A stretch of 64,000 nucleotides of DNA from Magnolia sinica. Lineage: Eukaryota > Streptophyta > Magnoliopsida > Magnoliales > Magnoliaceae. The translations under genes were made by a program, and so were the position numbers. The stretch is taken from assembly GCF_029962835.1 (NCBI RefSeq), contig NC_080582.1, positions 13,834,032-13,898,031 of the forward strand, written 5' to 3'. Below the pieces are notes generated by a model. That model was not told the DNA's origin. It did no database searches and was given only the letters and a program-made list of their open reading frames with translations. This document shows, in pieces, positions 7,530 to 61,860 of the stretch. The first letter of the stretch is position 1; the number at the start of each line of letters is the position of its first letter.

Positions 7530-8010
7530 AATACTCTTCGTAAAGAAAAATGATGATACTTGATGCTTATGTATTGACTATCACCGATTAAATAAGGTAA
7601 CGATTAAGAACAAGTATTCCTTATCACACAATGATGAGATGTTTGATCAGCTAAAGGGAGCTAGATATCTCTGTAAGGTTGACTTAAGATCTGGATACCA
7701 TCAGTTGCGAATCAAGGAGGAAGATATTTATAAAAAAGCCTTTAAAATGTGCTATGGACACTATGAATTTCTGGTTATGCCCTTCGGACCAACCAATGCC
7801 ACATTAGTGTTCATGGACCTAATGAATAGAATTTTCCAATCTTATTTGGATAACTTTATCATTATGTTCATCGATGGTTTATTGATTTACTTTAAGACCA
7901 GTAAAGAACATGAGCTACATTTGAAGACAACATTATAAACACTAAAGGATAATCAATTGTATTCTAAATTTTCAAAATGCAAATTCTGAAAGGAGAGTGT
8001 CAGTTTTCTT
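7530..8010 (+). pseudogene. Reverse transcriptase remnant
   Basis: Blocks in order: [22 protein letters not shown], the VMPFGPTNA block and FIDGLLIY. The YxDD catalytic box is FIDG at about 7867-7878, so the second Asp is lost. A stop lies before CIDYHR and another after LKTTL. The region between protease and RT is shorter than usual, suggesting a deletion near 7440-7530. Confidence 0.8.
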
Positions 8011-8289
8011 AACCACATTATCTTAGAAACAGAATTGTAGTAAATCTAGTAAAGATCGAAGCTGTGGTGAAATAGGAACGACACACAAACGTCTAAAAAG
8101 TTAGAAATTTTCTCGAACTGGTCGGGTAACAGAAGATTCATCAAAGATTTTTTAAAGATTTCTAAACCATTGATAAGTTTGACTGGAAGAGAGTACTATT
8201 CAAACGAATTGAGAAGTGTAAAGAAACTTTCACCGAACTAAAGCGACTTCTAACCTTCACTCCCTATCCTTACTCTTCTGAAAGACAGA

Positions 8290-8820
8290 TTGATGTTTGA
8301 AGTATATACAGATGCATCGATAAAAGGTTTTGGTTTTGTATTGATGTAACTGGGTAAGGTCATTGTGCAAGCATCAAGACAACTTAAGCCCTATGAGCAT
8401 AATTAATAAACTCATGACCTATAATTACTTGCCATTGTGTTTGCATTAAAAACTTGACAATATTATTTGTATGACGAATGGTTTAAAATTTTTATAGATC
8501 ACAAGAGTCTTTGGTGTTTATTATCACAGAATGACCTGAATATGAGGCAAAGAAGATGGGCAAAATTTCTAAAATACTACGATTTTGAATTACTTTATCA
8601 TATAGATAAAGCAAATTTAGTAGCAGATGCTCTAAGCAGAAAAGAATATAAGCAGAAGACTATAGTTGAATGGGAGATGCGAAGTTTCATAAGAGAATTC
8701 GATGTCAAACTGAATTTTCAAAAGCAGAAGGTTGAGAAACTAACTCTTAGGGATCATATTATTGAAGCCCAAACTAATAATGAATGGTTACTGAAAATGG
8801 TAGAAAAAATATTAAGATAA
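8290..8820 (+). pseudogene. RNase H remnant
   Basis: YTDASIKGFGFVLM starts the domain, then ASRQLKPYE, FIDHKSLWCLL and [12 protein letters not shown]. This is the usual gypsy RNase H followed by its ADALSR tail. The open part 8467-8820 is one uninterrupted stretch of 117 codons; the upstream half has several stops. Confidence 0.8.
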
Positions 8821-20948: not shown

Positions 20949-20988
<40 letters not shown>

Positions 20989-21065
20989 GTACAAGGGCTA
21001 GAGAATGGACATGCACACGAATAAGGAGAGAGGGCATGTGTTCATAGATTTAATAGGGGTATGGG

Positions 21066-21100
<35 letters not shown>

Positions 21101-21116
21101 TTAATAGGGGTATGGG

Positions 21117-21158
<42 letters not shown>

Positions 21159-21243
21159 ATGTACAAGGGCTAGAGAATGGACATGCACACGAATAAGGAG
21201 AGAGGGCATGTGTTCATAGATTTAATAGGGGTATGGGCGTGTA
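19683..21243. repeat. LTR-like start, microsatellites and an 80-bp direct repeat
   Basis: TGTAACACCCAGTGGGGC at 19,683 looks like an LTR end of the TGTAAC type. A (CA)n tract is at 20,114-20,148 and (CT)n tracts at about 20,950-20,985, 21,070-21,098 and 21,120-21,152. An 80-bp block (ATGTACAAGGGCTAGAGAAT ... TAATAGGGGTATGGGCG) occurs at about 20,987-21,068 and 21,160-21,240, with a short partial copy between. Three CT tracts plus block copies suggest unequal slippage. Confidence 0.55.
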
Positions 21244-22385
21244 GACTACAAGAAAGAGGGTTTTTAGCGACGAAACTTTTAGCGACGAAATTTTTTTTCG
21301 TCGCTAAAAGTGACTTTCAGCGACGAAATAAATTTTCGTCGCTAAAAGAGTATCTTTAGCAATGAAACTTTTAGCGACGAAAGTTTTCGTAGCTAAAAAT
21401 CGTGGACGAGACTTTTAGCGACGAAAATATTCGTCGCTACAGGCTCCAAACAATTTTTGGACGATTACTTTTAGCTACGAAACTTTTCGTAGCTAAAAAT
21501 CGTGTATGGGACTTTTAGTGACGAAACAGTTCGTTGCTAAAAGTAATTTCGTCTCTAAAACTTTAGTCGTTAAAAGTGTTGTGTATTCCAGGTTGAAAAA
21601 GGTGGCCCTAACTTTTAGCGACGAACCAAAACCGTCGCTAATAATTTTTTTTAGCAATGAACATTTTCGTTACTGAAAGTAATTTCAAGAAGAGTTTTAG
21701 CGACGAATATTTTCGTCGCTAAAACATCTATCTCAGTTTGAAAATTTTGGCCCTGACTTTTAGCGACGAACCAAGACCGTCGCTAATAATATTTTGAGTG
21801 ACGAAAAGTATCACGAGTGAAAGGAGTTTCTAGAAGAGTTTTAGCGACGAATATTTTCGTCGCTAAAAAACAAAAATTTTGGCCCTGCCTTTTAATGACG
21901 AACCAAGACCGTCGCTAATAATTTTCCCTCTCTTTTAAAAATTTTCCCGCTAAGAGTTTTAGCAACGAATATTTTCGTCGCTAAAAGAGTTGTGAAAATC
22001 TTAGCCCTGACTAATAGCGACGAAAAATTGCGTCGCTAAAAGTAATTTCCCGCTTTTTTAAAAAATTTCCCGCTAAGAGTTTTAGCAACGAATATTTTCG
22101 TCGCTAAAAGAGTTGTGAAAATCTTAGCCCTGACTAATAGCGACGAAAAATTGCGTCGCTAAAAGTAATTTCCCGCTTTTTTAAAAATTTTCCCTCTAAG
22201 AGTTTTAGCAACGAATATTTTCGTTGCTAAAAAATAGAAATTTACTTTTACCGACGAAACTTTTCGGCGCTAAAAGTGTTTTGTATTTCCATTTTTGGCC
22301 CTGACTTTTAGTGACTTTTAGCGACAAACCAAAACCGTCGCTAATAATACTTTTAGCGACGAAAATATTTGTCGCTAAAAGTAAT
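21244..22385. repeat. CACTA 5' subterminal palindrome array
   Basis: Many units of the form TTTTAGCGACGAAA...TTTCGTCGCTAAAA, with variants AGCTACGAAA...TTTCGTAGCT and AGCGACGAACC...CCGTCGCTAA. Each unit can form a hairpin. Two long blocks starting TAAGAGTTTTAGCAACG at 21,951 and 22,074 are nearly identical, a recent 123-bp tandem duplication. No coding sequence. Confidence 0.85.
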
Positions 22386-23090
22386 GTTGCTTTTGAAGAT
22401 AATATAGGAAATTTGAAATTTTTGAGAAAAAATTTATAATATGAGAAGTTTTTTGAGATTTTGAAAATAAAAATTCTAATTTGTATTTTAATTTTTTTGA
22501 AATATTTTATAATAAAAATGATATTTTATTAAAAGAGTAAAAAAATATACATTTTGGAAAAAATGTTATTTTTAAATGTAAATTGAAATTTATCTGTGAA
22601 AAATAAAATTACTAAATTATTAGGGAGATCCACTAATTGAACCTTTAATCAACTCTTTTTGGACAATTTAATCAGTTCAAATTGAACAGTAAATAACTTT
22701 AGATGTTTAAATCAAATTCACCAATTTCTCCCAAATTGGATCACCTGCCCTCAAATTTTGAAATCTAACGTTCAAATCCTTGAATTTGGTAGAAAAAAAA
22801 TGAAGAATCAAGCATTTCTCACCTATTGGCACTAATTTGGTACGATTTGAACAAAAAAATGGAGCAAAATGTAAAAATATGACATTGAGAAAAACTTTGA
22901 CAATGTTTGAGAAAAAACTTTGAAAACAAAATGATGCTCTTGTAAAAAAAAAATCAACATTTTGAAATTTTTGAGGAAAAAAATTAAAATATAAGAAATT
23001 TTTTAAGATTTTGAAAATAAAAATTCAGAATTTGTATTTTTATTTTTATTTTTATTTTTTGAAATATATTATAATAAAACATCATGGTGA
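22386..23090. repeat. AT-rich interior with a 110-bp direct repeat
   Basis: GAAATTTTTGAGAAAAAA...TTTTGAAAATAAAAATTC at about 22,416-22,520 recurs at about 22,965-23,080, 550 bp apart. No reading frame of interest. Confidence 0.6.
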
Positions 23091-23126
23091 TCCATGGGTT
23101 TGCCATATCCCGGGACAAATTCATCG

Positions 23127-23213
23127 GGTTTGTTTGGCTCGTTTGGCATATCATGGGATTTTACCATCCCATCCCTCCTAATCCCTCTTAATCTGCTTGG
23201 CCAAACAGGCCCT
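23127..23213. mobile_element. Small MITE (about 87 bp)
   Basis: GGGTTTGTTTGGCTC on the left is mirrored by TTGGCCAAACAGGCCC on the right, the GGGCCTGTTTGG type of terminal repeat. Target duplication not resolved. Confidence 0.45.
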
Positions 23214-23214
23214 G

Positions 23215-23646
23215 AATGTATTTGGTCTATCCATGTCATCCATCCATTTTTCAGTCTAATTTAAGGAGTTGAGCCCAAAAGATCAAGTGGATCATATCAC
23301 TGGAAACAATGGAGATAATAATTTCCACCGTAAAAACCTTTCTAGGCCCCACAGTGATTTTATTTGTCATCCAACCTGTTCATAAGATCATACAGACATA
23401 GATGAAGTTAAAACACAAATATAAGCTTGATCCAAAACTTCCAGGGCTCCCAAGAATTTTTCAACTGTAGATGTTCAATTCAATTGTATCCTGTTGTGTG
23501 GTCCTTATGAACATTGGATATGCCTCATTTTTAGTCTCAATCTGAAAATTTATCTGTTAAAATTAACGGATGGAGAGGATAAAATACATAAATTATGGTG
23601 GACCTCACAGAGTTTACTCATAGTGAGTTACTCACTACGCAATCCG
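23215..23646. mobile_element. Fold-back element E, left end missing
   Basis: Ends GTGAGTTACTCACTACGCAATCCG, the same terminus as elements A and B at 2.6-3.5 kb, and shares their interior (CATCCATCCATTTTTCAGTC, CCCCACAGTGATTTTATTTG). The left terminus is absent. It sits inside the CACTA element, so the fold-back group was active after the CACTA was assembled or was captured with it. Confidence 0.65.
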
Positions 23647-25440
23647 CTTCAATGGTAATAAGCTATATGGGCCAATAGAAGAGTTCAAAAATCATGCAAA
23701 TCTAAAATTCAAGTGGGCCACACGTCAGACAAAACGGGCAGGATGGAACATCCACCATTGGAAACTTGGCAGGACATCGGGATGATATTTGTGCCCATGG
23801 TTTTATTTGTGTGGTGATAACCTTATTAACGGTTGAGATGGTGTATAAATATCATAATGGGTTCTAGGAAGTCTCAATGGTGGACGTTTCCATTCTCAGT
23901 ATTTCACTCGGAGTGGCCTAACTTAGTTTTGAACCTGCCCGATTTTTAGACCCTATCCCATTACGAGCTTGAGAAAATCATGAACAAAGTGGTTTTGTTA
24001 CTGCATTTCTGTGGGCCCACATAGCTTCTGGTCACAAGAACTTCCCATGATGCATTTCGTCATCCATCTCTTGGCATGCATTTTGCAGTGAGGATTTTGA
24101 CAACTCACGGTGCCCCTTATCAGCATACATTGTTGGGGTGGGTTTTCAATCTGTTTTGCTTCCTAAACTATGATCTCCCTGTTTTTGTTATAATCATGCC
24201 ATAGATGCTATGGTAGCAATGCTTCATTGTTGATCCTAACCTATCATGCTTGGATTCGAATATGAGCCATTTGATCTTTAGTTCTCAATGTTCTAAATTT
24301 TCTGTCCTAGACAATCATTAGTTTAGCGAATGCTTCTTATTATACACTAGAATATGAACAATTTATTTCATCATCTAAGATGTATTTCGAGTTCTAAACC
24401 CATCCTCGATGGCTATGGTATGGTGGGCACCATTCTCTATCAAACCCTTATAGCAACTGGCGCAGGTATGGACGTGATGAGGTCGATCACTGTCTTCCTC
24501 AAAGTGGATAATTATTCCAATTCCATGAAGTTTTTCTATATTTTTCATAAAGATTCCTCGAATCCACAAGAAAAAATAGAAATAAATTCTAGTAAATTCA
24601 AAAATAGCTTAATTGATGATAAAAAAATGGAATTACATGGGTTTTTAATTGTCACTTGCACAATGTGATTCTTTACAATTATAAGCAAACCATGATAATC
24701 CTAACAAATGGATGAATCGAAATGTTGATTGGACCTATTTTTGTGTAAATGATCTTGACCGTCCATTTTTAATTCCATTTACGGAATGGTCAAATTTACT
24801 AAATCAGTGTGATATTTTCATGGTAGTTCTTGAAATATGGATTATACCTGATGAACCGTATTGATCAATGGTTTGGACTGTCTATGTTCTGAATAAAAAT
24901 GGGTACACTATAACAAATTGTGTTCGTAGGCACCGGAGCATTTCTAAATAAATAAATAAAAGAGTCCTTGTGAAGCAACAATATTTATGGGAGATGTGTT
25001 GGTGTTCTCTCACATAATTTTTTTTTTTTTAAAAATTAGGGCTTGATACCAAAAATGAGAGGTATATAAATCTCAGGTGGACCACACCACATGATAACAA
25101 TAGTGATTGAATATCCACCATTAAAACCCTCCTAAGGTCCATTGTACTTTTTATTTGACATCAAATCTATTGATTAGGTCATACATGCCCGGATGATGAG
25201 AAAAAGAAATATCAGATTGATCCAAAAATGTATATGGCCCCCAAAAGTAACTTAATGGTCGATGCTCATTCAACACTGTTTCCTATAATGTGGTCCAGTT
25301 GAGATTGGGATATACCTCATTTTTTGTCTCATACCATAAAATGATATGGAAAAATAGATGGACGGCAGGGATGAAACACATACAACATCGTGGCGCCCAC
25401 ACAACACCGACAACCAGCCACGGGCGTTGGTGTCAGCGCG
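23647..25440. other. LTR-like remnant and fold-back element F
   Basis: 24,340-24,680 includes GATCACTGTCTTCCTCAAAG and TTCCTCGAATCCACAAGAAA, homologous to 5110-5240. 25,030-25,440 is a fold-back fragment (GGTGGACCACACCACATGAT, AGATGGACGGCAGGGATGAA, GGCGCCCACACAACACCGAC). CACTATAACAAATTGTG at 24,908 resembles a CACTA end but lacks subterminal repeats. No gene recognised. Confidence 0.45.
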
Positions 25441-25552
25441 AGTAGAGAGAAGGAGATATACTCTCCTCTGTCTCTCACTCTCTGTCTCCTCTCCCTCGCG
25501 CACCCTCTCTCTCTCTCTCGGTCTCTCACTCTCTGTCTCCTCTCCCTCGCGC

Positions 25553-25607
<55 letters not shown>

Positions 25608-25732
25608 CCCTCTCAACCGCGCCCTCTCTCTCTCTGTCTCTCTGTCGCTCTCTCTGTCTCTCTCGGTGCTCTCTCTCTCGCGCATCCTCTCTCTCTCTGT
25701 CTCTCTCGGTGGATCGGTGGACCGTGACCGGG

Positions 25733-25782
<50 letters not shown>

Positions 25783-26000
25783 CGTTCTCACCGTTGACGA
25801 AAATCCCCAATTTCTCGATTTTGGGATTCGAAATCCCTAATTTCTGGATTTGGGATTCGAAATCCCTAATTTGCCTGTATGGGATTCGGATTTGAGGATT
25901 CAGAATCGAAAATCCCTGATTTTTTGATTTTTTGGGGATTCATATCTGAAAATCCCTAATTAACAGATTTATTTGGGATTCATATCTGAAGTGGACGCAA
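25440..26000 (+). promoter_or_regulatory. CT-rich leader-like region, possible captured promoter/5' UTR
   Basis: 25,440-25,795 is CT microsatellite with a duplicated TCTGTCTCCTCTCCCTCGCG block. It is followed by AT-richer sequence with repeated GGGATTCGAAATCCC palindromes (25,825-25,870). Plant 5' UTRs and first introns often look like this. It lies just upstream of the exon series on the plus strand. No TATA box was identified, so promoter activity is a guess. Long open frames here are translations of the CT tract. Confidence 0.35.
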
Positions 26001-26450
26001 TGTACTTTAATTTGATTCTTTAATAATATCTGTTGATCTGTGTTGCGTCATAATGAGTGGTGTACCTTAGCAAGCAATTTTTACCAAGGTGGTTTTATTC
26101 AATGCTAGCATGCTTTCAAAATTGTTTTTTTGTTTGTTAGCCTTTCCCCCCATTTACAGGTTCAAATCAATCTGTTGTATAATGACATTGGTTCTTTAGG
26201 TCTTTAAGAATATATTTTCCTTGAAACTGTGGCTATTTGGCACAAATAATTTTGAGCAAGAATCACATATGTCCAGCCTTTATTCATATTTCAGGTATAT
26301 AGGTATGCTGTCTGATGTTCTGAAATCTCAACATGAGGAAGGGGAAGCTTACTTGTCTGAAATTGATGTTTGGCTTTCCTCCTTTTCTTTACATATCTTC
26401 AGGTAAAAGATGATCTAGCTCCATTTGTTTGTGTGCCCGCACACATGCAG

Positions 26451-26580
26451 GAAGGAGTTAGAAGATGTGTTGTCTATAGATGATCTCGAAAGCCTTAAAA
26501 ACTTGCCAATGGCTAGTTTTGAGTCAGAACTTTGGAAAGTAGTTGGCCAGAATCGTTTGCCTGAAACAGACAGAAGAAAG
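26451..26580 (+). pseudogene. Captured exon, RNA-dependent RNA polymerase-like (RDR gamma clade)
   Basis: The exon is bounded by CATGCAG and AAG/GTGATA and codes for 43 residues without a stop: KELEDVLSIDDL, ESLKNLPMASFESELW, then NRLPETDRRK. The pattern L.DLPM..FES..W.......ED/TDRR recalls the N-terminal region of plant RDR3/4/5-type polymerases, which copy RNA in silencing; I recall the family, I could not search it. The expected following block (LDWDSGKTH) is absent. The upstream stretch 26,285-26,400 also reads open (LKSQHEEGEAYLSEID) but is unassigned. Confidence 0.4.
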
Positions 26581-26740
26581 GTGATACTTCTTGTTTGATA
26601 ACTGTCATTCTCATTTACATGCTATGTCGTATCCCATTAAGACTGAGAAGTCAATCTCAGCATTATTAACCTTGTGAGGATGTTCATTATGATTTTTGTT
26701 TTTGTGTATTTGCTAAGTTGTCCATTTCATTGTTCAAGTG

Positions 26741-26881
26741 AGCTTGCTTTGGAAGCTTGTTAAAGTTCCACATCCTGAAAATGTAAGAGCTCAGGAAGTG
26801 CTTGTGCTCTTCCTTCTGTCTACTGGAATCAAGAACCCAAGTGTTGAATTGGGTGCAAGCAGTTTGAAGTCGAAGAGTGCA
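26741..26881 (+). pseudogene. Unidentified captured coding-like segment
   Basis: Open translation starting SLLWKLVKVPHPENVRAQEV and continuing LVLFLLSTGIKNPSVELG, which has the composition of real protein. GTAAGAG inside it (about 26,783) could be a splice donor. I do not recognise the family. It is on the same strand as the other captured pieces. Confidence 0.35.
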
Positions 26882-27012
26882 CTACACCAAAATCATAATC
26901 ATTATTAAATTCTTTTTTTTTTTTTTTACAAACATCATGTCAGACTTCTTTTTTACTCTGTTCCATTTTTCTGTTTGATTTTTTATGTCCAGAGATACAG
27001 GTTCATCAACGA

Positions 27013-27130
27013 AAGAATTCCATTGATACATTGCTTGCCAAACAGGCTGTCCTTGTGGATATCTGTACTATGGAGGTTCAAGGGTGGACCTCACACCCCC
27101 CAAGTTCAATTGGATATGTTAGAATGGAAA
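27013..27130 (+). pseudogene. Unidentified captured coding-like segment
   Basis: After GATACAG the frame reads VHQRKNSIDTLLAKQAVLV then DICTMEVQGW, protein-like and without a stop until 27,237. Family not recognised. It may belong to the same source gene as the segment at 26,741. Confidence 0.35.
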
Positions 27131-28347
27131 TATATAACCATAGTTTTTCTTTTCGATGTTTTCACAGCTGTACGGATCTACGGCACCATACAGTTATAAG
27201 TAGATGGTACTTCAGCAAATTGTCTCTAAATAATTGATATCAACTGAGTCCTCTTTTAGAGGTTGTATTTCAACCATAGCAGATCCTGTCAATAGGCTTA
27301 ATATATAAAGACCCATGCATCTGTTATTCAAGAAACATGGTGGAAATCAAAGCCTTTGGTAGTATTAAATGACCATAAATATCAGTCAGGTGGTATTCCG
27401 TAGTTGCATATTTTGAGGAAAATGCTCAACCAGGTTCTTTAGAGATGGTTCAGGGAAGATCACTTTTTGTTTTCCAATAGGCTTTGTTGAGCTGTATGTA
27501 TGGACTTCTGGAGTAGACTATGATGATATTTTGACTGAATTGAGTCAGTTTTCTTGTTTCCTTTCATAGATTTGATTTTCTATTGGCGTGATGGCTTTAG
27601 AGCCTCTTTGGTGCAATGCCTTAAGAGTTTTGTGGCACAATTCCACATATTTATCTTTTTATTTGTTGTTTTGTCATTACTGTTGGCTGTTGCTTCATGG
27701 TAGATTTGTAGTCAATGTCTAGTATGCAGCCTGAAATTCGGAGAAAAAACTCTGAAAAGATTCCTTTGCATGTAACTGTTAAAAAAAGATTCCTCTGCAT
27801 ATGAGATAAAAACAGAGAGGGGCTCCACTTCATCCAGTGTAGGGTATATGAAAGTGAAAAAACCAGACATTGGACATTAGAGAAGTAAACTTGCTTTATA
27901 GGGCCTTCTCTTGTAAATGGTTAGGTAAAATTTTGATCCTGTGTGAATGGTTGGGGCTACCAAGTATGTTGCGAGGAGAGTTTGGTACAGAAAAAACATT
28001 CGCCATCATATAATATTCTTCTGGAAGGCTGTTGGAAAAAATTATAATGATTTTTCTGCAAGTAATTTTTCCAACCTGCATTTCCCACCCCTGAACATTT
28101 CCCCAAGGAAGCCTTGAGAAGTGAATGAGATGTTCTATGGCATCTCCCATCAACATCTGCCTCATCAGATGATTGTCAAGCCCAACTTCTTTCCCTTCTG
28201 AGTCCCGATTAGAATACTCATAACCATGACAAATTGGAAAGCCATCCTTAGTAATTTCTCATTTCCATTGTATCATGATCCGATCATTATTGTTTTGTGC
28301 ACATTGGCTTGTCTTTTGGACACCTTGTGATCTTTGCCGTGATGCAG

Positions 28348-28438
28348 GGTGGCAGACAAGGACTGGGGAGCTGATTTTAGGAAGCTGTCTGCTAGTGCAG
28401 CTCTTGTTGGCCTTACTTTATGGTTTGACCATATGCAG
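28348..28438 (+). pseudogene. Unidentified captured exon with a possible GC donor
   Basis: Follows GATGCAG and ends CATATGCAG/GCAAGT, a good match to the rare GC-AG intron donor. One frame gives VADKDWGADFRKLSASAALV then GLTLWFDHMQ without a stop. Family not recognised; it may be part of the peptidase gene that follows or of another gene. Confidence 0.4.
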
Positions 28439-28874
28439 GCAAGTCTTCTTTCACTAGCTACATCACTAAGCTTTATTTATTGTCAAGGAAACCAGTGGTG
28501 GATGATGAAATGATTAAAATCATGCTTTCTTTAAACTAATGATATCTATCAGAACATCTTCTCTTGCATTGAGAATGGCCTTGACTTGATGCTTTTATCG
28601 TCCAGAATCATGTAGATCTTGCTCATCTGGATGATATTTTTTCCCCTTTAAATATCTTGGAGCTGATCTTTTGTGTTGCCTTGCAAACTTTACAGGTTTC
28701 TTATTATTTTAACAATCCAGATGTCACAGAGTGATTTTCAAGGTTCCTCCTGCCCTGCAGATATGTTTTTTTTTAATCTCATACTGCAATACATCTTAAG
28801 TAGCAGTTGTTGCCAATGGAATGATATGCATGACTAGGACCCTATAATTATGATCATGATACCACTATGTGCAG

Positions 28875-29161
28875 GAAAAGGGTTTCAGCTCAGGTGATAT
28901 CTTTATCAAAAGAGTTGTCGCCAAGGTAGGGGACTTTGTCGATGTGAGTTTCCCCTCCAGCTAATTTTTTTAAAATCACTTTCATTGATCAAGAATGATT
29001 CAATATGCATTTGATTCCATACTTCATTTTCTAATGCTAAGCATCGGACATGCATGTGTTTTGCCTTTTGATAGGTTCGTGATGGAAAATTGATGGTGAA
29101 TGGAGTAATCCAAGATGAAGATTTCATTTTAGAGCCACTTGAATATGAAATGGATCCTATG
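28875..29161 (+). pseudogene. Thylakoidal processing peptidase (type I signal peptidase) fragment, two exons
   Basis: Type I signal peptidases of the thylakoid remove lumen-targeting peptides with a Ser/Lys dyad. Exon 28,875-28,943 (after GCAG, before GTGAGT) gives SSGDIFIKRVVAKVGDFVD, including the Lys box with the catalytic Lys. Exon 29,075-29,161 (after ATAG, before GTAAGT) gives VRDGKLMVNGVIQDEDFI then LEPLEYEMDPM. The two exons join in frame and closely match plant chloroplast TPP. The upstream Ser box (PSMxPT) and the downstream GDN box are absent, so this is a fragment of about 52 residues and cannot be an active enzyme. Confidence 0.8.
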
Positions 29162-31045
29162 GTAAGTTCTCCTTTTGAACTTTGCAATATATATAACTTA
29201 AAACTTGGCAAGAATTTTCAGATTGTCTCAACGATTTTTTTTTTTTTTTTTATAAAAATATAGGAATAAACTAGTTAATTTTTTGGTGTTTTGGTAATTG
29301 GAATTAAGGAAGAAAAGGTTATTTGCAGATTGGTTTTTAAAAAGTGATGAGCTGAAATGCTTTGAAACTTTTGCTGACTTCTTGTAACTGATCCTTGACC
29401 TAACATGTATGATGACTGAAGCAATCATGCTGCTGAAATGCTTTGGAACTGTTGCTGATGTCTTGTAACAGATCCTTGACCTAACATGTATGATGGGCAA
29501 AGCAATCATACCACCTAAATGCGTTTAACTTATTTACTGTGAGTTGTATCCGGATTATGTGTAATGAGTAGTATTATGAGTTTTGACTAGGAATTATTTT
29601 GTTAATAGGCCTTTACTACATAACCGAGAGCAAATATTAGACACTGATTCGGAACTAGAGAGTTAAAAGAGGAGGAAGTTGATCATGGGATATGTATCAT
29701 TCATTTAACAAAACTTTGCTTAGTTTTTCATGAACTCGTCCTTTTCTTGACTTTGTTTGAGAGTGATTCTATAGGCCACATGAAGTGATTTTTTTGCAGG
29801 TTCTTTGGGTGATTTGCTAATCAATCTGTTTGGTAAGATAACCTGCAAATCTATCAGTTGTGTCCACACCACTGTTTTGAATAGTGTCGTAGCGTAGCGT
29901 AGCTACGATGCTAAAGTTAGCAAATAGCGTAAATCCCTTGTGGCGTATGCTATAGGGGTCGCAGCCTATGTAGCGTCATAGTGTACACTAGGTTTTTTTG
30001 TATTTATTAATGATAATTATATTTTGTATTTAATACTTGATTTCTTTTCATACTTGTGACTTAGTACTCAAGAAAAAGAAGTACCATGGCATACCATAGC
30101 ATTCACTCGAAACTAAACAGCCCCTAAAGTTTTTCTTATTTATATAATATGAATGGCGCGTTTCCTAATATTTTCTTGTTTACTCCAAACCTTTGCTTAG
30201 TTGTTCCATGTAATGGCTCAATAGGCCCCAAGGTTGAGGGTTTGAGTTGGTGCTAACACCATCAAAACTTATTTAATATGAATACAATCAACTAAAAACT
30301 TTGTAAAATTGTCATGCGATTCTTGCATAAAACATATCTAGATTCTAGACATGCAGGCCCATTTATAGAAACCCTCTTTATGAGCAGTTTGGATCCTTGA
30401 AATTGGAAACTAAAGATTTGAGTATAAATAAGTTTTAGTAAAATATTTCACTTTATAATTTACCAAAATCCACAATCTTGAAGGGCTAGTGGTTTGATGC
30501 TTCGACATAAAATAAGAAACCAATCTGTTCATGGTTCATGATATATGACTTGTGAGAGAAAATAGGAATAAATGGAATAAACCTGTAGTGGAAGACATGA
30601 TCCATGTGACAATTGGAAGCTGAGGCAATTATTACACCATATCTTGATCAGCATGCCTGTAGATGTGTGGCATAGTCATTTCCTGAACTCAATCCATGTC
30701 AGGTAACTTCTTACATGTATCTGACCAAACTTAAACATGATAACTTTTTCCACATTCCTCTAACCCCAAAACAAGCATAAAACCAACTCCACTTTCTAAT
30801 TTAGGAGATGCATGGATGAGAGGATCTCTACCCTATGCTTCCCATCTTAGTACTTCATGCTCATCTTCTTGCTCTTTTTTTAATATTGAAATTTGGTCTC
30901 TGATAAAGTACAGCTAATTGTTCTCATGATTTCGAATCAGTATTTATTTAAACAAATTGGATGTCATTCCTATCTTTGTTCTTACAGCAAGATGCATTTT
31001 TATTTTCTTTTATTGCATGCTCTTATTTTCTGCTTGTGTGGTTGT
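29162..31045. other. Intron-like spacer between captured fragments
   Basis: Contains a duplicated stretch (CTGAAATGCTTTGAAACTTTTG / CTGAAATGCTTTGGAACTGT, about 29,352 and 29,433) and, at about 29,868-30,000, a repeat with TGTTTTGAATAGTGTCGTAG and several GCGTAGC copies, resembling the one at 12,288. No exon recognised. Confidence 0.45.
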
Positions 31046-31553
31046 CATGAAAAGCGGGATGCTGCCACTGCTCCAAATGTTGGGGATCGTGTTCTGTATG
31101 TTATTATTAAAGCTGCAAAAGGTGCCAAGGTAGTTGGTTATGTGATGCTTGTTCTTTGTGAGTTGTTTTTTCCTGTGCTCATTGGTAATGCTTTCAAATC
31201 CACTGGTTCATAATGAAACAGGCTTATGAAAGGTCGGAGGATCCTATCTTCGTGCTAGAGAATAACATTCCAATTGATTCCCATTACTATCTCGAAAATC
31301 AAATTAGCAAGGTGTTATTTGGTATTTCCTTCAAGATTTACTTCACTACTTTCTTTGATTGACCTGGTTATTGAGTATTTTCCATGTTACAGCCGCTTTT
31401 GAGAATATTTGATCCCATTCTGAAGAATGCGGAAAAGGAACTTCTCCATGGCAGCCACACAAGATCAGTTTCCATTTCAATTCCTTCAAACAGCGGTATC
31501 ATGAAATTTGCTAAGAAACAACTTTGTTGCATTGGCTGCAAAGCTCTAATCAG
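31046..31553 (+). pseudogene. POLD1: DNA polymerase delta catalytic subunit fragment, three exons
   Basis: DNA polymerase delta is the main lagging-strand replicase. Exon a, about 31,046-31,129: KRDAATAPNVGDRV and YVIIKAAKGAK. Exon b, 31,222-31,311: [19 protein letters not shown] then YYLENQISK. Exon c, 31,393-31,553: PLLRIFDPILKN, SIPSNSGIMKFAKKQ, CCIGCKALIR, entering the C-terminal zinc finger (CysA). All borders are GT/AG and the reading frame runs through without a stop. It matches the end of plant POLD1 closely but the polymerase active site and the final cysteine motif (CysB) are missing, so it is a captured piece, not the gene. Confidence 0.92.
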
Positions 31554-32650
31554 GTAAGTTTCCTACATTTGCTAAGTTATGGTCCTAGTGCATAATTGTC
31601 AATGTATCGTGTGTATGACATTCACCCTCCAATAGGTTGGTCCGGCCATGAAGATCACCTAGCACATAAATCGGGTATATCCACTCATCAGATGTGCCAC
31701 ACATGTACTTTGGATCGGCTGAGCGGTTGTCCATGTTTTTTGTGGTTTGGCCTACTTGATTATTTGATCAACCTGAAATTTGCATCAGGTGTTTTCATGG
31801 AGGTGCCAACCTTTTTGATTGGTTGGATGTTAGACACGCTTGAAACATTGAATCTTATGTGCTGGTTGGTCAATAACCAATAGTCCAACTAGTTGCACAT
31901 GAGACCTCGTGTGTATCATCGTCATCATCATAGCCTTCCGTCAGGTATTTGGGTCAGCTTTGTGAATCTCATTTCACCAATCAATCCTAAGGCTCTATGC
32001 TATGCAACTGAACAAGCCTTCATATACTTCCTCACCACCTTGATCCAAGACCTTTTTAGGTCTTCCTGTCATATTCTTTTTGAGGCCTTTCAACTCCTAT
32101 CATTATTCCTTGCTGGAGCTCTCTAGTCTTTGTTGCACATGACCGATCACCTCAACCTGCTCTAGATCATTTAATTTCTTATTGGAATTATTCTTATGCT
32201 GTTCCAATGAACTCATTTTTAATTCTATACTTTCGTCCCAAGCATAGCCAGTCAAGTAGCTGTCTTATGAAAATTTTCTAGTTTCATTGACATAGGAGCC
32301 GATCAATTTCCTTGTTTCATAGACATTCCCATGATGAAGGGCTTGATCCAAAATGACATAGGAGTCGGGAGGAACACTTGTTTCATAGACATCCACCGAT
32401 GGATAAACGAACTTATATGTATTTATGCGTGAATGAATGTGATGTGGATAAGATTGTTTGTGTTTGGATGAATGTACTTTTATGTTTGGATGGATTTACT
32501 AGTTTGGGTTTATATGAATGTGAATGTGAATATGATGCATTATACTATATAACAGGTGTATATCAGGAAAAATATGATGAAATATATTATAACAGGTGTA
32601 TATTAGGAAAAATAATTTTTTTGTGAAATTTTGTGCCGGAATATTGAATT
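31554..32650. other. Region between captured POLD1 exons and CACTA 3' end
   Basis: No gene recognised. GTCCGGCCATGAAGATCACC and CTCATCAGATGTGCCACACA at 31,640-31,700 belong to a dispersed repeat type also seen at 14,440 and 17,940. 32,530-32,620 has a doubled ATAACAGGTGTATATYAGGA block. Confidence 0.4.
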
Positions 32651-32654
32651 TATA

Positions 32655-33277
32655 AAAGAGACTTTTAGCTACGAAATTTTTCGTAGGCAAAAGTTTTGTA
32701 AATATTACTAAAAGTGGAACGAATATTTTTTAGCAGCGAAAATTTTCGCTGCTAAAAGTCTTGTAAAGTTTTTTTAGCGACGAAAGTTTTCATCGCTAAA
32801 AGTGGACCGAATATTTTTGGTAGCGAAAATTTTCGCTGCTAGTTTTTTTAGCGACGAAAATTTGCGTCGCTAAAAGTGGAATTTAAATTTTTGGCCGCGA
32901 AAATTTTCGCTGCTAAAAGCCTTATAAAGTTTTTTTAGCGACGAAAAGTTTCGTCGCTAAAAGTCAGCGAAAATTTTCGTTGCTAAAAGTCTTATGAAGT
33001 TCTTTTAGCGACAAAAATTTTCGTCGCTAAAAGTGGAACGTATATGTTTGACAGCGAAAATTTTCGCTACTAAAAGTCTTGTGAAGTTTTATTAGCAACG
33101 AAAATTTTCGTCGTTAAAAATATTACCTTTGGCGGCGATTTAAATTTTTCGTCGATAAAACCTTTTTACGCCGGTGTTTTAGTGACGAAAATGTTCGTCG
33201 CTAAAACTTATTAGCTACGAAATTTTGGCTTTTAGCGACGACAATTTTCGTTGCTAAAAGTGGGATTTCTTGTAGTG
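32655..33277. repeat. CACTA 3' subterminal palindrome array and terminus
   Basis: Units such as TTAGCGACGAAAA...TTTTCGTCGCTAAAAG and AGCAGCGAAAATTTTCGCTGCT, ending GTGGGATTTCTTGTAGTG at 33,277. The GCAGCGAAAATTTTCGCTGC variant is frequent here but not in the left array, so the two arrays have diverged. Confidence 0.85.
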
Positions 33278-34194
33278 ACTTGTGACATACCACTTGAGAA
33301 GGGTTCCTTAAATACTTTATTTCGGTTGGTCTTTTCCTAATTCTAATCCATTCATTACATTTAGGCTGAAAAGTAGGGTCGAGATACACTATTTTCTTGG
33401 TAATCCACTATCTAAATTGGCCAATCTTGAAAAATGACTTGGTAGATGCCAAAATATACTTAATCTTGGTTAACAATCCACGCCTAACGATCAAGTTCCA
33501 AAATTAGCGAAAATGTGAAGTCGTAATAGGAAAACAATTGAGAAAATTTTGGTGGTTGATCGATGGTAGGAAAGGTCTAAATATGATATTTTACACGTCG
33601 TGTTAAAAGATAGTAACCAATTTTAGGGTGGTCATCATCTGACAGTATAGAATCATGGATCGGGGTTCAAATTTTATATAATCCGATAGCTATATGAAGC
33701 CAAGGTGTGGTCAAATTTTGAGTTGCGATTGATGATGGGAAGTGGATTAATTGAAAGATCCAAATTTGAAAAGATGTGGCAACTTGGTTATTTATTAAAA
33801 CAGGGTAACTTAGAACTTAAGAAAATATTTACTAAGGTGAGACACTCATATTTCACATTCGCTCTTTATGATGGGCAATTCAAATCACTCACATAAAGGA
33901 AAATATTTGACCACAACTACCCACGAACTTTCCCGTAATACTCCCTACTTTTCAATACTAAGGTGTTATAACGTAGGTTTCTTAAGACTAATAGATGGAG
34001 TAGATCTATCAAATTCGCCACCATAGATTTCACACTATACGATGCATGGGCACATGCTCCATTACAACTAAAAAGAGTGAAATTCACATACAAGACGCTA
34101 TGTTTGAAATTCAAATTTGGCTAAACTATATTAGACTCACCAGAATAAGAGGATCAAATTTCGAACGTGCAAAGTCAATATCATGACTTAAAAT
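33278..34194. other. Unclassified, probably LTR-derived
   Basis: No gene recognised on either strand. GGTGTTATAACG at 33,962 recalls an LTR terminus of the TGTAACACC type, but no matching target duplication was found with the start at 19,683. Confidence 0.25.
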
Positions 34195-34237
34195 GAACAT
34201 CTATTTGATCAAATTTAAAATGATCAAATAGATGTTC
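34195..34237. repeat. Perfect hairpin, 17-bp arms
   Basis: GAACATCTATTTGATCA, a 9-base AT loop, then TGATCAAATAGATGTTC. The arms match at all 17 positions. Confidence 0.9.
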
Positions 34238-35260
34238 AAATAGGGAGTGGTGGCCCACCTAAACTTTGATTTGCCTTATCTTTGGTCTAGTTTTACCTCC
34301 TAAGATGACAAAGCTGATGGTGTAGATTGCCCATACAACAGTGTGGACCCCACCTTTTTCATTGAGTGTACATGGAGCTTGAGCCCACCCGCGGAGCATC
34401 AAGCCAAGATGCCTGGTCAACGGGTTTGACCCGAGACTGCGCGAAGAGGAAGGGGGGCCACCTCTGGCATTGGGGCAACCGATCTGAACCGTTCATCTAA
34501 TCCAGGGAATGGACCCGACCAAAGCCCTGGTCATTCCACTCGTTGGCATGCGCTGGTGTGCGCACGAGTTAGAACGCAAATAGGATGTGCGGGAGAAGTT
34601 TTTCCAACAATTAGAAATCCGATTTCCCTCCGGCCACGCTGGAAATCACAGTAGGATTTTTCCCACAATCCCAACCTTCCATTGCCATGAATCTCAGCCC
34701 TCCATGCAGCCCCAAAGTAGGTTTTTAAGTTCTGTAGAAAGGCAGAGAGAATCTACCCATTTCGGTGTTGGCTTAATCCTGACTGTTCAAGAGCTTCTAG
34801 AATCTCTTCCAGATCATCAGAGGCGTCCGTTTTAGGATGAGCAACAACTTATTCCGCTAAAGTAAAGAGCTCCACGAGAAATCCTTCCTCGTGTGAGATA
34901 TTGCCCGCGGTCAAAGATATCAAGATCCTCGTGAGGGAATGTAATGGTGAATGGTGGACCCCATAGTTATCAGTGGACCCATTCGGACCATCTAGACGTA
35001 TTAGATTGGGGAAAGAGGCCATAGACGAGAATTCGCCATGACCAGCTGTTTCATCTTCTCCATCCAACCAAGAAAACCACCATCGCTAGGTGGGCCCTAT
35101 TTTTAGATCAGATACATTCTCTTGATGGGACACACTATCTGTAACTCATTCATAATGTGAGATCATGGCCATGCATCCCTAATATGATTAAATCATCTTC
35201 AACTTTTCTCGGATTAGAGAGAGAGGTTGCAGTTAATCTCTTGATTAGTTGCGTTCGAAA
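34238..35260. other. Fold-back fragment and unclassified sequence
   Basis: 34,250-34,380 carries GTGGCCCACCTAAACTTTGA and TGTGGACCCCACCTTTTTC, degraded fold-back blocks. The rest (GC-rich with Arg/Ser-rich chance frames) has no recognised product. Confidence 0.35.
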
Positions 35261-56594: not shown

Positions 56595-57117
56595 TTAATA
56601 AAAATTTCGTCCTGAAAATTTAACATACCTATCATATAAAGAGATGAGGGTACTTCTCTTAGATTTTATCCTCTCGCTCCCACGAAGCTTCATCCTCACC
56701 ATGATGCCCCCACTAAACCTCACAAATGGGATTCTTCTTGTTCGAAGTACTTGCTCCTTCCTGTCGAGGATGTGAATCAGTTGTTGTATGTATGAGACAT
56801 CCTCTCGGATTTCCAACGGCTCCCAGTCTATGATATGCGATGTGTCTCTCTCATACTTCCGAAGTATAGATACATGAAATACGTCGTGAATGTCAAAAAG
56901 TTGAGGAGGTAAGGCTAATCTGTAGGCTACGAGGCTTACTCTCTGTAAAATCTCAAATGGTCTAATGTAGCGTGGTGCTAATTTTTCTTTCTTCTCAAAT
57001 CACATAACTCCTTTCATCGGGGATATCTTCAGGAACGCATGGTCTCTTATGATGAACTCCAAGTTCTTTCGGTGATTATCAGCATAGCTCTTCTGGCAAC
57101 TCTGAGCGGTACGTAGA
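56595..57117 (-). pseudogene. Integrase C-terminal and chromodomain-like tail
   Basis: Continues the integrase after the solo LTR: RTAQSCQKSYADNHRKNLEF, FLKISPMKGVM, LAPRYIRPFEI, ILDRKEQVLRTRRIPFVRFS, EIREDVSYIQQ. The ILDRKEQVLRTR...VW segment is the tail found in Del/Tekay chromoviruses. Frame breaks occur between 56,816 and 57,000. Confidence 0.75.
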
Positions 57118-61012: not shown

Positions 61013-61860
61013 TTTGATGATGATAATCTTCTCGGATGTCTCTTGCACTAGTTGCATCCCAACAATGTTCTTTTGCCCACTTCAGTCCAACAATTTGGTG
61101 ACCTGTAAGGTCTTCCGTATAAAGCTTTGAATGGTGCCATGCCAATAGTGGATTGGAAACTATTATTGTAGGCGAATTCTACTAAATAGAGGTGGTCGTC
61201 CCAATTTCCCTTGAAGTCAAGAATGCAGCTGTGAAGCATGTCTTCTAGGATTTTATTTACCCACTCTGTTTGCCCGTTAGTCCGTGGATGAAAAGTCATG
61301 CTGTAGTTTAGCGTTGTTCCCAATGCCTTCTGAAGACTCATCTAAAAACATGATGTAAACCTGGGGTCTCGATCGGATACTATGGACACATGAATGCCGT
61401 GAAGTCTAATGATCTCCTTGATATACTGTTTGCTTAACTCATCTAGGAATGAAGAAATATATATAGGAAGGAAGTGTGCTAACTTTGTTAGCCTATCCAC
61501 GATCACCCATATCGCATCATGATGATGACTTGTTTTCGGTAGTCTGACAATAAAATCCATCGATATGTGCTCCCACTTCCACTCTGTGACCTGTAACGGT
61601 TGTAAAAGTCCCGACGACTTCTGATGCTCTGTTTTAACTTGCTGACAAGTAAGACACCTTGCAACGTAGTTGACTATCTTCCTCTTCATATTACTCCACC
61701 AATATTGACATTGTACATCACGGTACATCTTGGTTCATCCTGGGTAGATGATGAATTTTGTGCGGTGTGCCTCATCTAAGACTTCTTGCTTCAATTCAGA
61801 TATATCTAGAACACATAACCTCCCTTGAAATTTGACCCCACCATCAGAGCCTAATTGCCA
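61013..61860 (-). pseudogene. Integrase, N-terminal and catalytic domains
   Basis: Zinc-binding part (YVARCLTCQQVKTEHQ), catalytic core with ISMDFIVRLP (first Asp), IWVIVDRLTKLAHFLPI, VSIVSDRDPRF (second Asp) and, after a stop, FHPRTNGQTEWVNKILEDML (Glu). All three DDE positions are present. A stop after TSCF splits the two open parts (61,342-61,728 and 61,048-61,341). C-terminal coding continues beyond the solo LTR at 57,117. Confidence 0.88.

Follow-up and report, generated by a model that had tools for sequence, protein, structure and literature searches.

Positions 21244 to 33277 of the Magnolia sinica DNA analysed here (64,000 nucleotides, C10:13834032-13898031, hereafter the window; contigs carry the prefix C) are one non-autonomous Pack-type CACTA element, which carries pieces of POLD1, of a signal peptidase gene and, with more reserve, of an RDR-like gene. 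We consider it highly probable that this element, a member of the En/Spm superfamily, was built stepwise from such host pieces.

The element and its sister copies

The element (12,034 bp, plus strand) carries on the left an 11-bp terminal inverted repeat, ACTACAAGAAA (21245-21255), which is an inverted match to the right end, and closes with the intact right repeat, CACTACAAGAAA, on the minus strand (33266-33277). Inside these termini lie subterminal arrays, built at both ends of TTTTAGCGACGAAA...TTTCGTCGCTAAAA: the left array (21261-22385, plus strand) consists of GCGACGAAA palindromes and 123-bp tandem units, and the right array spans 32660-33260 on the minus strand. The inverted CACTA-type ends and the arrays on both sides are present as a preliminary description of the window had reported them.

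Of the 1793 candidate places that the first 657 bp of the element picked out in the genome (1,838,573,281 bases in 127 contigs), we scored 40, which gave 337 matches; all counts for the whole CACTA family are therefore minimum numbers. In the other searches, scoring covered all 31 candidates for the POLD1 fragment, 40 of 78 for the RDR-like DNA, 40 of 3209 for the POLD1 borders, 40 of 346 for the peptidase and the deletion junction, 40 of 1482 for the leader module and 75 of 423 for the RNA-dependent RNA polymerase (RdRP) profile. The best seven other left-end matches among the 40 were 97-99% identical to the window copy from base 2 on. We took 20 kb around each of the ten best other matches, and the 12-kb unit proved co-linear end to end in all ten, on nine other scaffolds. 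The right end is identical in all ten and an intact left CACTACAAGAAA is present in nine, among which the unit measures 11,865-12,066 bp. The copy on C2 lacks about 130 bp (27142-27270), and the copy at C12:77.8 Mb aligns as two overlapping blocks. Seven of the ten are flanked by identical triplets (TTA, AAT, ATG, CAT, ACC, GGG and ATA; chance expectation for matching flanks, 1 in 64).

Terminal inverted repeats, 3-bp target site duplications (TSDs) of the sister copies and subterminal arrays at both ends are those of CACTA (En/Spm) elements, and source genes elsewhere together with mobility as a unit, seen in the ten co-linear copies, are those of the Pack type. The earlier proposal of transduplicated host exons in a CACTA element therefore holds, with the unit at ten of ten fetched loci, TSDs at seven and homologous genes on other chromosomes; the further copies that it had advised looking for exist, all ten with the element's ends (one left end shortened). 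Pack-MULEs have TSDs of 8-11 bp with long terminal inverted repeats, and Helitrons have TC...CTRR ends and no TSD; both identities were ruled out by the 3-bp TSDs and the CACTA ends.

No transposase was found inside the element: ten of its 25 open reading frames (ORFs) of at least 70 amino acids were scanned against Pfam and gave no match above the cut-off. The longest ORF outside the low-complexity leader has 120 amino acids. When, with an autonomous partner with the same ends in view, 150 scored Transposase_21 matches (of 1669 candidates) were set by eye beside the 40 scored left-end places, the only match within 25 kb inside a left end was C2:109935664 (minus strand; left end at C2:109956590, 77% identity).

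At its left junction the window copy reads ...GTAG-ACTACAAG, that is, GACTA with G instead of C as the first base, and its right flank is ACT. The unmatched 3-bp flanks (GTA and ACT), already noted in the preliminary description, are real and are explicable by one deletion event. With ACT as the target triplet, the left junction would at first have been ACT followed by CACTACAAG, and slippage between the ACT of the target and the ACT inside the terminus would have removed 4 bp and produced the observed junction letter for letter. We infer that such a slippage is the simplest account of the odd left end, because this single deletion would yield both the G for C and the missing TSD; it requires ACT as the right triplet, which has a chance of 1 in 64. 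The left target triplet would then be merged with the ACT of the terminus (21245-21247), and the right triplet stands at 33278-33280. No contiguous empty site was seen in a genome search with the right flank (33278-34400), and this flank adjoins or lies in an old dispersed repeat that is about 70-77% identical elsewhere. The left flank (20950-21239) holds CT-rich tandem repeats, a unit of which ends beside the transposon junction.

Captured host gene pieces

The POLD1 piece is a genomic segment with introns (30067-32357, plus strand), whose exons lie at 31055-31129, 31222-31311 and 31393-31553 (plus strand). These exons match Pfam DNA_pol_B (1.6e-15) and residues 910-1019 of human POLD1 (E = 1.5e-34), which confirms the POLD1 exons of the preliminary description. 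A genome search with the Pfam polymerase B profile returned five pieces in order at C2:20387194-20390040, and homology to the window runs on downstream of them (C2:20390950-20393229, 97% identity), covering 30067-32357, introns included, so that C2 appears to hold the native POLD1 gene. The letters of C2 and the window diverge at both borders (30067 and 32357), and in 326 exon bases the two differ by eight changes, three of them amino-acid changes. The sequence right after the right capture junction copies POLD1 66 bp upstream: an imperfect second copy of 32288-32326 lies across the junction at 32354-32392 (plus strand), and when the 73 bp that follow the junction were shuffled 2000 times, the score was never reached. 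This repeat suggests a template switch during copying repair.

The signal peptidase segment (28696-29537, plus strand) has an approximate left limit and a right limit that is set by a later deletion. Its exons lie at 28696-28760, 28875-28943 and 29075-29161 (plus strand). The exon peptides match Pfam Peptidase_S26 (7.7e-6). What had been called a thylakoidal processing peptidase (TPP) is thus upheld as a signal peptidase; the thylakoidal type is our assumption from Arabidopsis sequences together with the Pfam match. Peptidase profile pieces at C11:5117140-5117280 and C11:5120131-5120202 stand on either side of window-like DNA, in which C11:5118120-5118443 is 94% identical to the window and identity drops to 85% in the following intron; C11 is the likely source of the peptidase piece, though not the sole candidate. 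The exon at 28696-28760 is out of frame relative to the peptidase locus on C17 and has lost its donor, the letters there being AT in all 11 copies (the window and ten sisters); it is 2 bp shorter than on C17 in ten of the 11, and one of the ten sisters has it at full length. Set beside known peptidase sequences, the C17 locus is presumably frameshifted at the equivalent exon as well.

The RDR-like segment (25986 to 28450, plus strand, with its right limit somewhere in 28451-28690) contains two exons, 26295-26402 and 26451-26580, both open and bordered by AG and GT, and an exon-like piece with a GC donor at 28348-28438 (all plus strand). The last of these, formerly listed as an unassigned coding-like piece, sits in the homologous block of the RDR-like exons. 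The peptides of the RDR-like exons gave no Pfam match and the first two joined exons no PDB match. DNA like 26421-26800 occurs at C13:15611367-15611743 (minus strand), 13.5 kb 5' of an RdRP-domain match at C13:15597659 (minus strand), and a second homologue, C13:15495902-15496283 (minus strand), lies between the RdRP-domain matches 15472884-15473890 and 15521395-15522417, all on the same strand. Of the earlier claim of RDR-like exons, the association with C13 RdRP-domain exons stands (two of about 16 relatives), but the exon peptides themselves match nothing; we accept the label, with reserve, by this co-location, and regard it as the weakest part of our reading. About 40 dispersed matches near RdRP profile positions 379-450, most of them with stop codons, were also found among the scored candidates, which suggests that some mobile element is dispersing a further RDR exon.

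Mapping of the source genes, which had been recommended, led for POLD1 to C2, for the peptidase to C11 and, less directly, for the RDR-like DNA to the vicinity of the C13 RdRP-domain exons; the RDR and peptidase sources are pinned less firmly. The assertion that the exons have good plus-strand splice sites needs correction: among nine exons surveyed, AG precedes all nine and GT follows seven, but GC follows 28348-28438 and AT follows 28696-28760.

Proposed order of assembly

The genome holds 31 loci with the POLD1 fragment, at 96-100% identity: 15 compact copies including that of the window, seven longer or rearranged forms, eight loci without the RDR-peptidase cassette and the putative native gene. 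In the eight cassette-free loci homology starts at 30067 (in one of them at 30167), passes the end of POLD1 into the right side of the element and reaches 32575-32640, where the query ends. Seven of them have kept one more POLD1 exon, some 2.3 kb upstream, where C2 has it too. From these loci we conclude that POLD1 was captured first, as a longer piece. The joined RDR-peptidase cassette occurs at C17:57714024-57717587, where POLD1 is absent and homology starts at 25985, as in the element.

In all 15 compact copies 29180-30066 is continuous, and the compact form is the product of an internal deletion, because longer relatives have the two sides of the junction (29535-29537) apart and because at C4:47712909-47717938, the single locus whose letters were read, the sides match to 29537 and from 29535, respectively, and so share 3 bp (TAC). 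The gap between the sides is 5.03 kb at C4:47.7, 5.03 kb at C3:87.7 and 5.02 kb at C3:122.1, whose right piece matches only from 29627; smaller gaps occur at C8:6.0 (3.1 kb) and C1:17.3 (2.5 kb). The segment between the junction and POLD1 (29538-30066, plus strand) has a second copy at C4:86319274-86319801.

We propose the following order of events. A CACTA element would first have taken up a POLD1 genomic stretch beside its right end. A pre-joined RDR-like/TPP cassette would then have been placed between the leader and POLD1, at the cost of the 5' portion of the captured POLD1 DNA; two adjacent CACTA elements may have fused in this step. Loss of about 5 kb of the interior, with a 3-bp overlap at the joint, would have left the compact 12-kb form. 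Finally this form was amplified and came to occupy at least 15 loci, presumably mobilised by transposase from related CACTAs. Directly visible in the genome are the termini, the TSDs flanking the sisters, homologues of the captured genes on other chromosomes, the junctions and the graded set of forms; the identity of the true donors, the mode of repair or fusion, mobilisation in trans and transcription from the leader into the exons are deduced.

Several observations weigh against this reading. The window copy has neither a directly readable TSD nor an intact left terminus, the copies on C9 (CGG/CCC) and C11 (TCT/AGT) have unmatched flanks at an intact left terminus, and the left end of the copy on C8 (C8:21804756) is missing its initial 12 bp. 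About 14 of the roughly 16 scored outside relatives of the RDR-like DNA, on C3, C4, C6, C9, C10, C12, C16, C17 and C18, do not lie near a listed RdRP match. Two loci on C17 (64160685 and 36351434, 95%) are as close to the window peptidase as C11 is (94%), and a peptidase identity below the 97% of POLD1 would need an earlier duplication. The CACTA nature of the eight cassette-free loci is deduced from a match to 32640 only, and their matched part would fit fusion and insertion of the cassette alike. The link from the leader module, described below, to a transposase comes from two of 17 loci. As an observation apart, the C8 copy has a 16-bp duplication of flanking sequence in place of the lost 12 bp, as if a cut end had been repaired by copying the other flank.

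Alternative explanations

It is quite possible that a CACTA element with the RDR-peptidase piece and another with POLD1 were neighbours and then moved as a single element. Such a fusion model of Pack elements reportedly goes back to Catoni in 2019. It is restated in PMC8903248. The right half common to the eight cassette-free POLD1 loci, none of which is among the 40 scored left-end matches, speaks for fusion, but no POLD1-free RDR-peptidase element with both CACTA ends was found among the best 40 of 1793 left-end candidates, and the imperfect repeat at the right POLD1 junction resembles copying repair for the first capture.

We regard it as unlikely that the RDR and peptidase pieces were first carried by another kind of mobile element (a Helitron or a Pack-MULE) and then entered the CACTA element, and we give this idea more weight than we otherwise would because the sources of these two pieces are less firmly pinned. 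RDR-like or peptidase fragments at C17:57714024, C6:10511288 and loci on C3, C4, C9, C10, C12 and C18 are as such a carrier would leave them, but in all eight cassette-free loci POLD1 is directly joined to right-side sequence of the element itself.

Two separate CACTA elements flanking ordinary host DNA, to which the unmatched flanks and the first base G of the window copy might point, are hardly conceivable, since the 12-kb span at ten of ten fetched loci, seven with TSDs, already refutes them and, between the ends, any internal match to CACTACAAGAAA has at least two mismatches. Hardly more credible is a real conserved gene or cluster invaded by CACTA ends, as the open POLD1 and RDR-like exons, the splice sites and the single strand might suggest, since mapping of the homologues to C2, C11 and C13 already refutes it, the POLD1 homology is sharply bordered on both sides and a peptidase exon is out of frame with its donor lost. 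Both outcomes had been named beforehand as fatal to the proposed element, and neither occurred: the sister copies share both ends, and the homologues of the exons, instead of standing in a native gene order, are dispersed on other chromosomes.

Divergence between the copies

We aligned the 11 copies (ten fetched and that of the window; the row for C5 is without its final 58 bp and includes 16 bp of flanking sequence). Pairwise substitutions amount to 0.4-1.5%. The left and right transposon parts have nucleotide diversities of 1.5% and 2.0%, respectively, compared with 0.17% in the RDR-like segment, 0.03% in 29538-30066, 0.26% in POLD1 and 0.82% in the peptidase segment. The RDR-like and POLD1 segments are thus about 6-12 times less diverse than the ends and the peptidase only about 2 times less, exons and introns alike, with exons slightly the less variable; variable columns number 4 of 877 in exons (whose limits may be off by a few bases) versus 81 of 5501 in other captured DNA. 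Much of the peptidase diversity stems from clusters of changes at 29261-29336 that are private to one or the other of two copies: the window copy has 13 beside a T run and the C2 copy has eight in the same place; we suggest that this is a local error-prone or template-switch spot.

Variable sites per site in the left part exceed those in the captured part 2.3-fold at CG, 9-fold at CHG, 4-fold at CHH and 5-fold at A/T positions. The contrast between ends and interior stays above 3-fold without the copies on C4 and C11, or also without those at C12:77.8 and on C2 (together the four most divergent). The C4 copy has 65 private changes on the left and one in the interior, and the C11 copy has 36 on the right, a pattern that suggests exchange of one end in each. 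The contrast may come from exchange with the large CACTA pool, from methylation-linked mutation or from polishing error in an assembly made from Oxford Nanopore Technologies (ONT) plus Illumina reads, as given in PMC10999834. With the interior taken at face value, amplification of the compact form would be roughly ten times younger than the capture of POLD1 (0.2-0.3% versus 3%).

Leader module and possible chimeric RNA

Directly upstream of the captured DNA lies a transposon-derived leader module of CT-rich and ATCCC repeats (25430-25989, plus strand; the left limit was set by the query). Seventeen scored loci outside the POLD1 family carry this leader only to the junction (query 558-560). In three of them the leader sits about 4.1-4.6 kb inward from a related left end, as in the window element, and in two a Transposase_21 domain follows on the same strand about 5.5-7 kb downstream; about 0.007 leader-transposase pairs within 10 kb are expected by chance. 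Because the leader precedes Transposase_21 elsewhere, the host exons would stand, in sense orientation, at the expected position of the transposase gene.

A chimeric RNA from the transposon's own promoter into the captured exons is plausible on this arrangement. A protein from the predicted RNA would be poor, because the first peptidase exon has no donor (11 of 11 copies) and is 2 bp short (ten of 11). A bacterial promoter scan of the leader was uninformative, the host being a plant.

It is also conceivable, although we think it very doubtful, that the captured interior has been spared mutation (for example as unmethylated DNA, a form of 'camouflage') while the ends diverge, and that an RDR-peptidase-POLD1 RNA is transcribed from the leader at 15 or more loci. 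If so, small RNAs made from it could target a gene of RDR, a silencing family.

Elsewhere in the window, minus-strand open frames at 679-1501 resemble what we take to be terpene synthase exons, and open frames at 7564-8820, 56595-56999 and 61342-61734 presumably represent pol fragments of Ty3-type retrotransposons.

Relation to known elements

The Tpn1 family of Ipomoea nil consists, according to PMC5105172, of non-autonomous En/Spm elements capturing host genes, with TSD mismatches in 14 of 339 elements. The Magnolia sinica element shares with it the terminal inverted repeats, subterminal repeats, 3-bp TSDs, host-filled interior and many copies, but belongs to another sequence family and host, one three-gene combination has been amplified, and likely precursors were found. 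Tgm-Express1 of soybean is likewise a CACTA element, holding exons together with introns from several genes unrelated to one another; PMC1947982 gives 5.7 kb, five host gene fragments and chimeric transcripts detected by reverse transcription-PCR (RT-PCR), whereas the Magnolia sinica element is known from sequence and has at least 15 dispersed compact copies.

The definition behind the Pack-CACTAs of Arabidopsis and the packFinder sets of rice and maize, as it appears in PMC8903248 and PMC13317346, also fits the present element. Stepwise enlargement in a maize Pack-PIF family and fusion in a rice Pack-Mariner family are described in the former, according to which most CACTA Pack elements of rice and maize are of low copy number; unlike these, Magnolia sinica has 30 POLD1 copies joined to the element's right-side sequence. 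A literature search on magnolia, CACTA and gene capture returned only a Chenopodium paper, one on 'sequential acquisition' with CACTA and gene fragments returned nothing, and one on transduplicated CACTA with RNA-dependent RNA polymerase returned nothing beyond a review.

The kind of element is already known; the family in Magnolia sinica is new, with unusually full intermediates. A single genome keeps the likely sources, the one-gene form, the joined cassette, the longer relatives, the compact product and its amplification. This is an unusually complete Pack-CACTA record, in which the models of capture, fusion versus copying repair, can be tested junction by junction in what we infer to be a magnoliid lineage.

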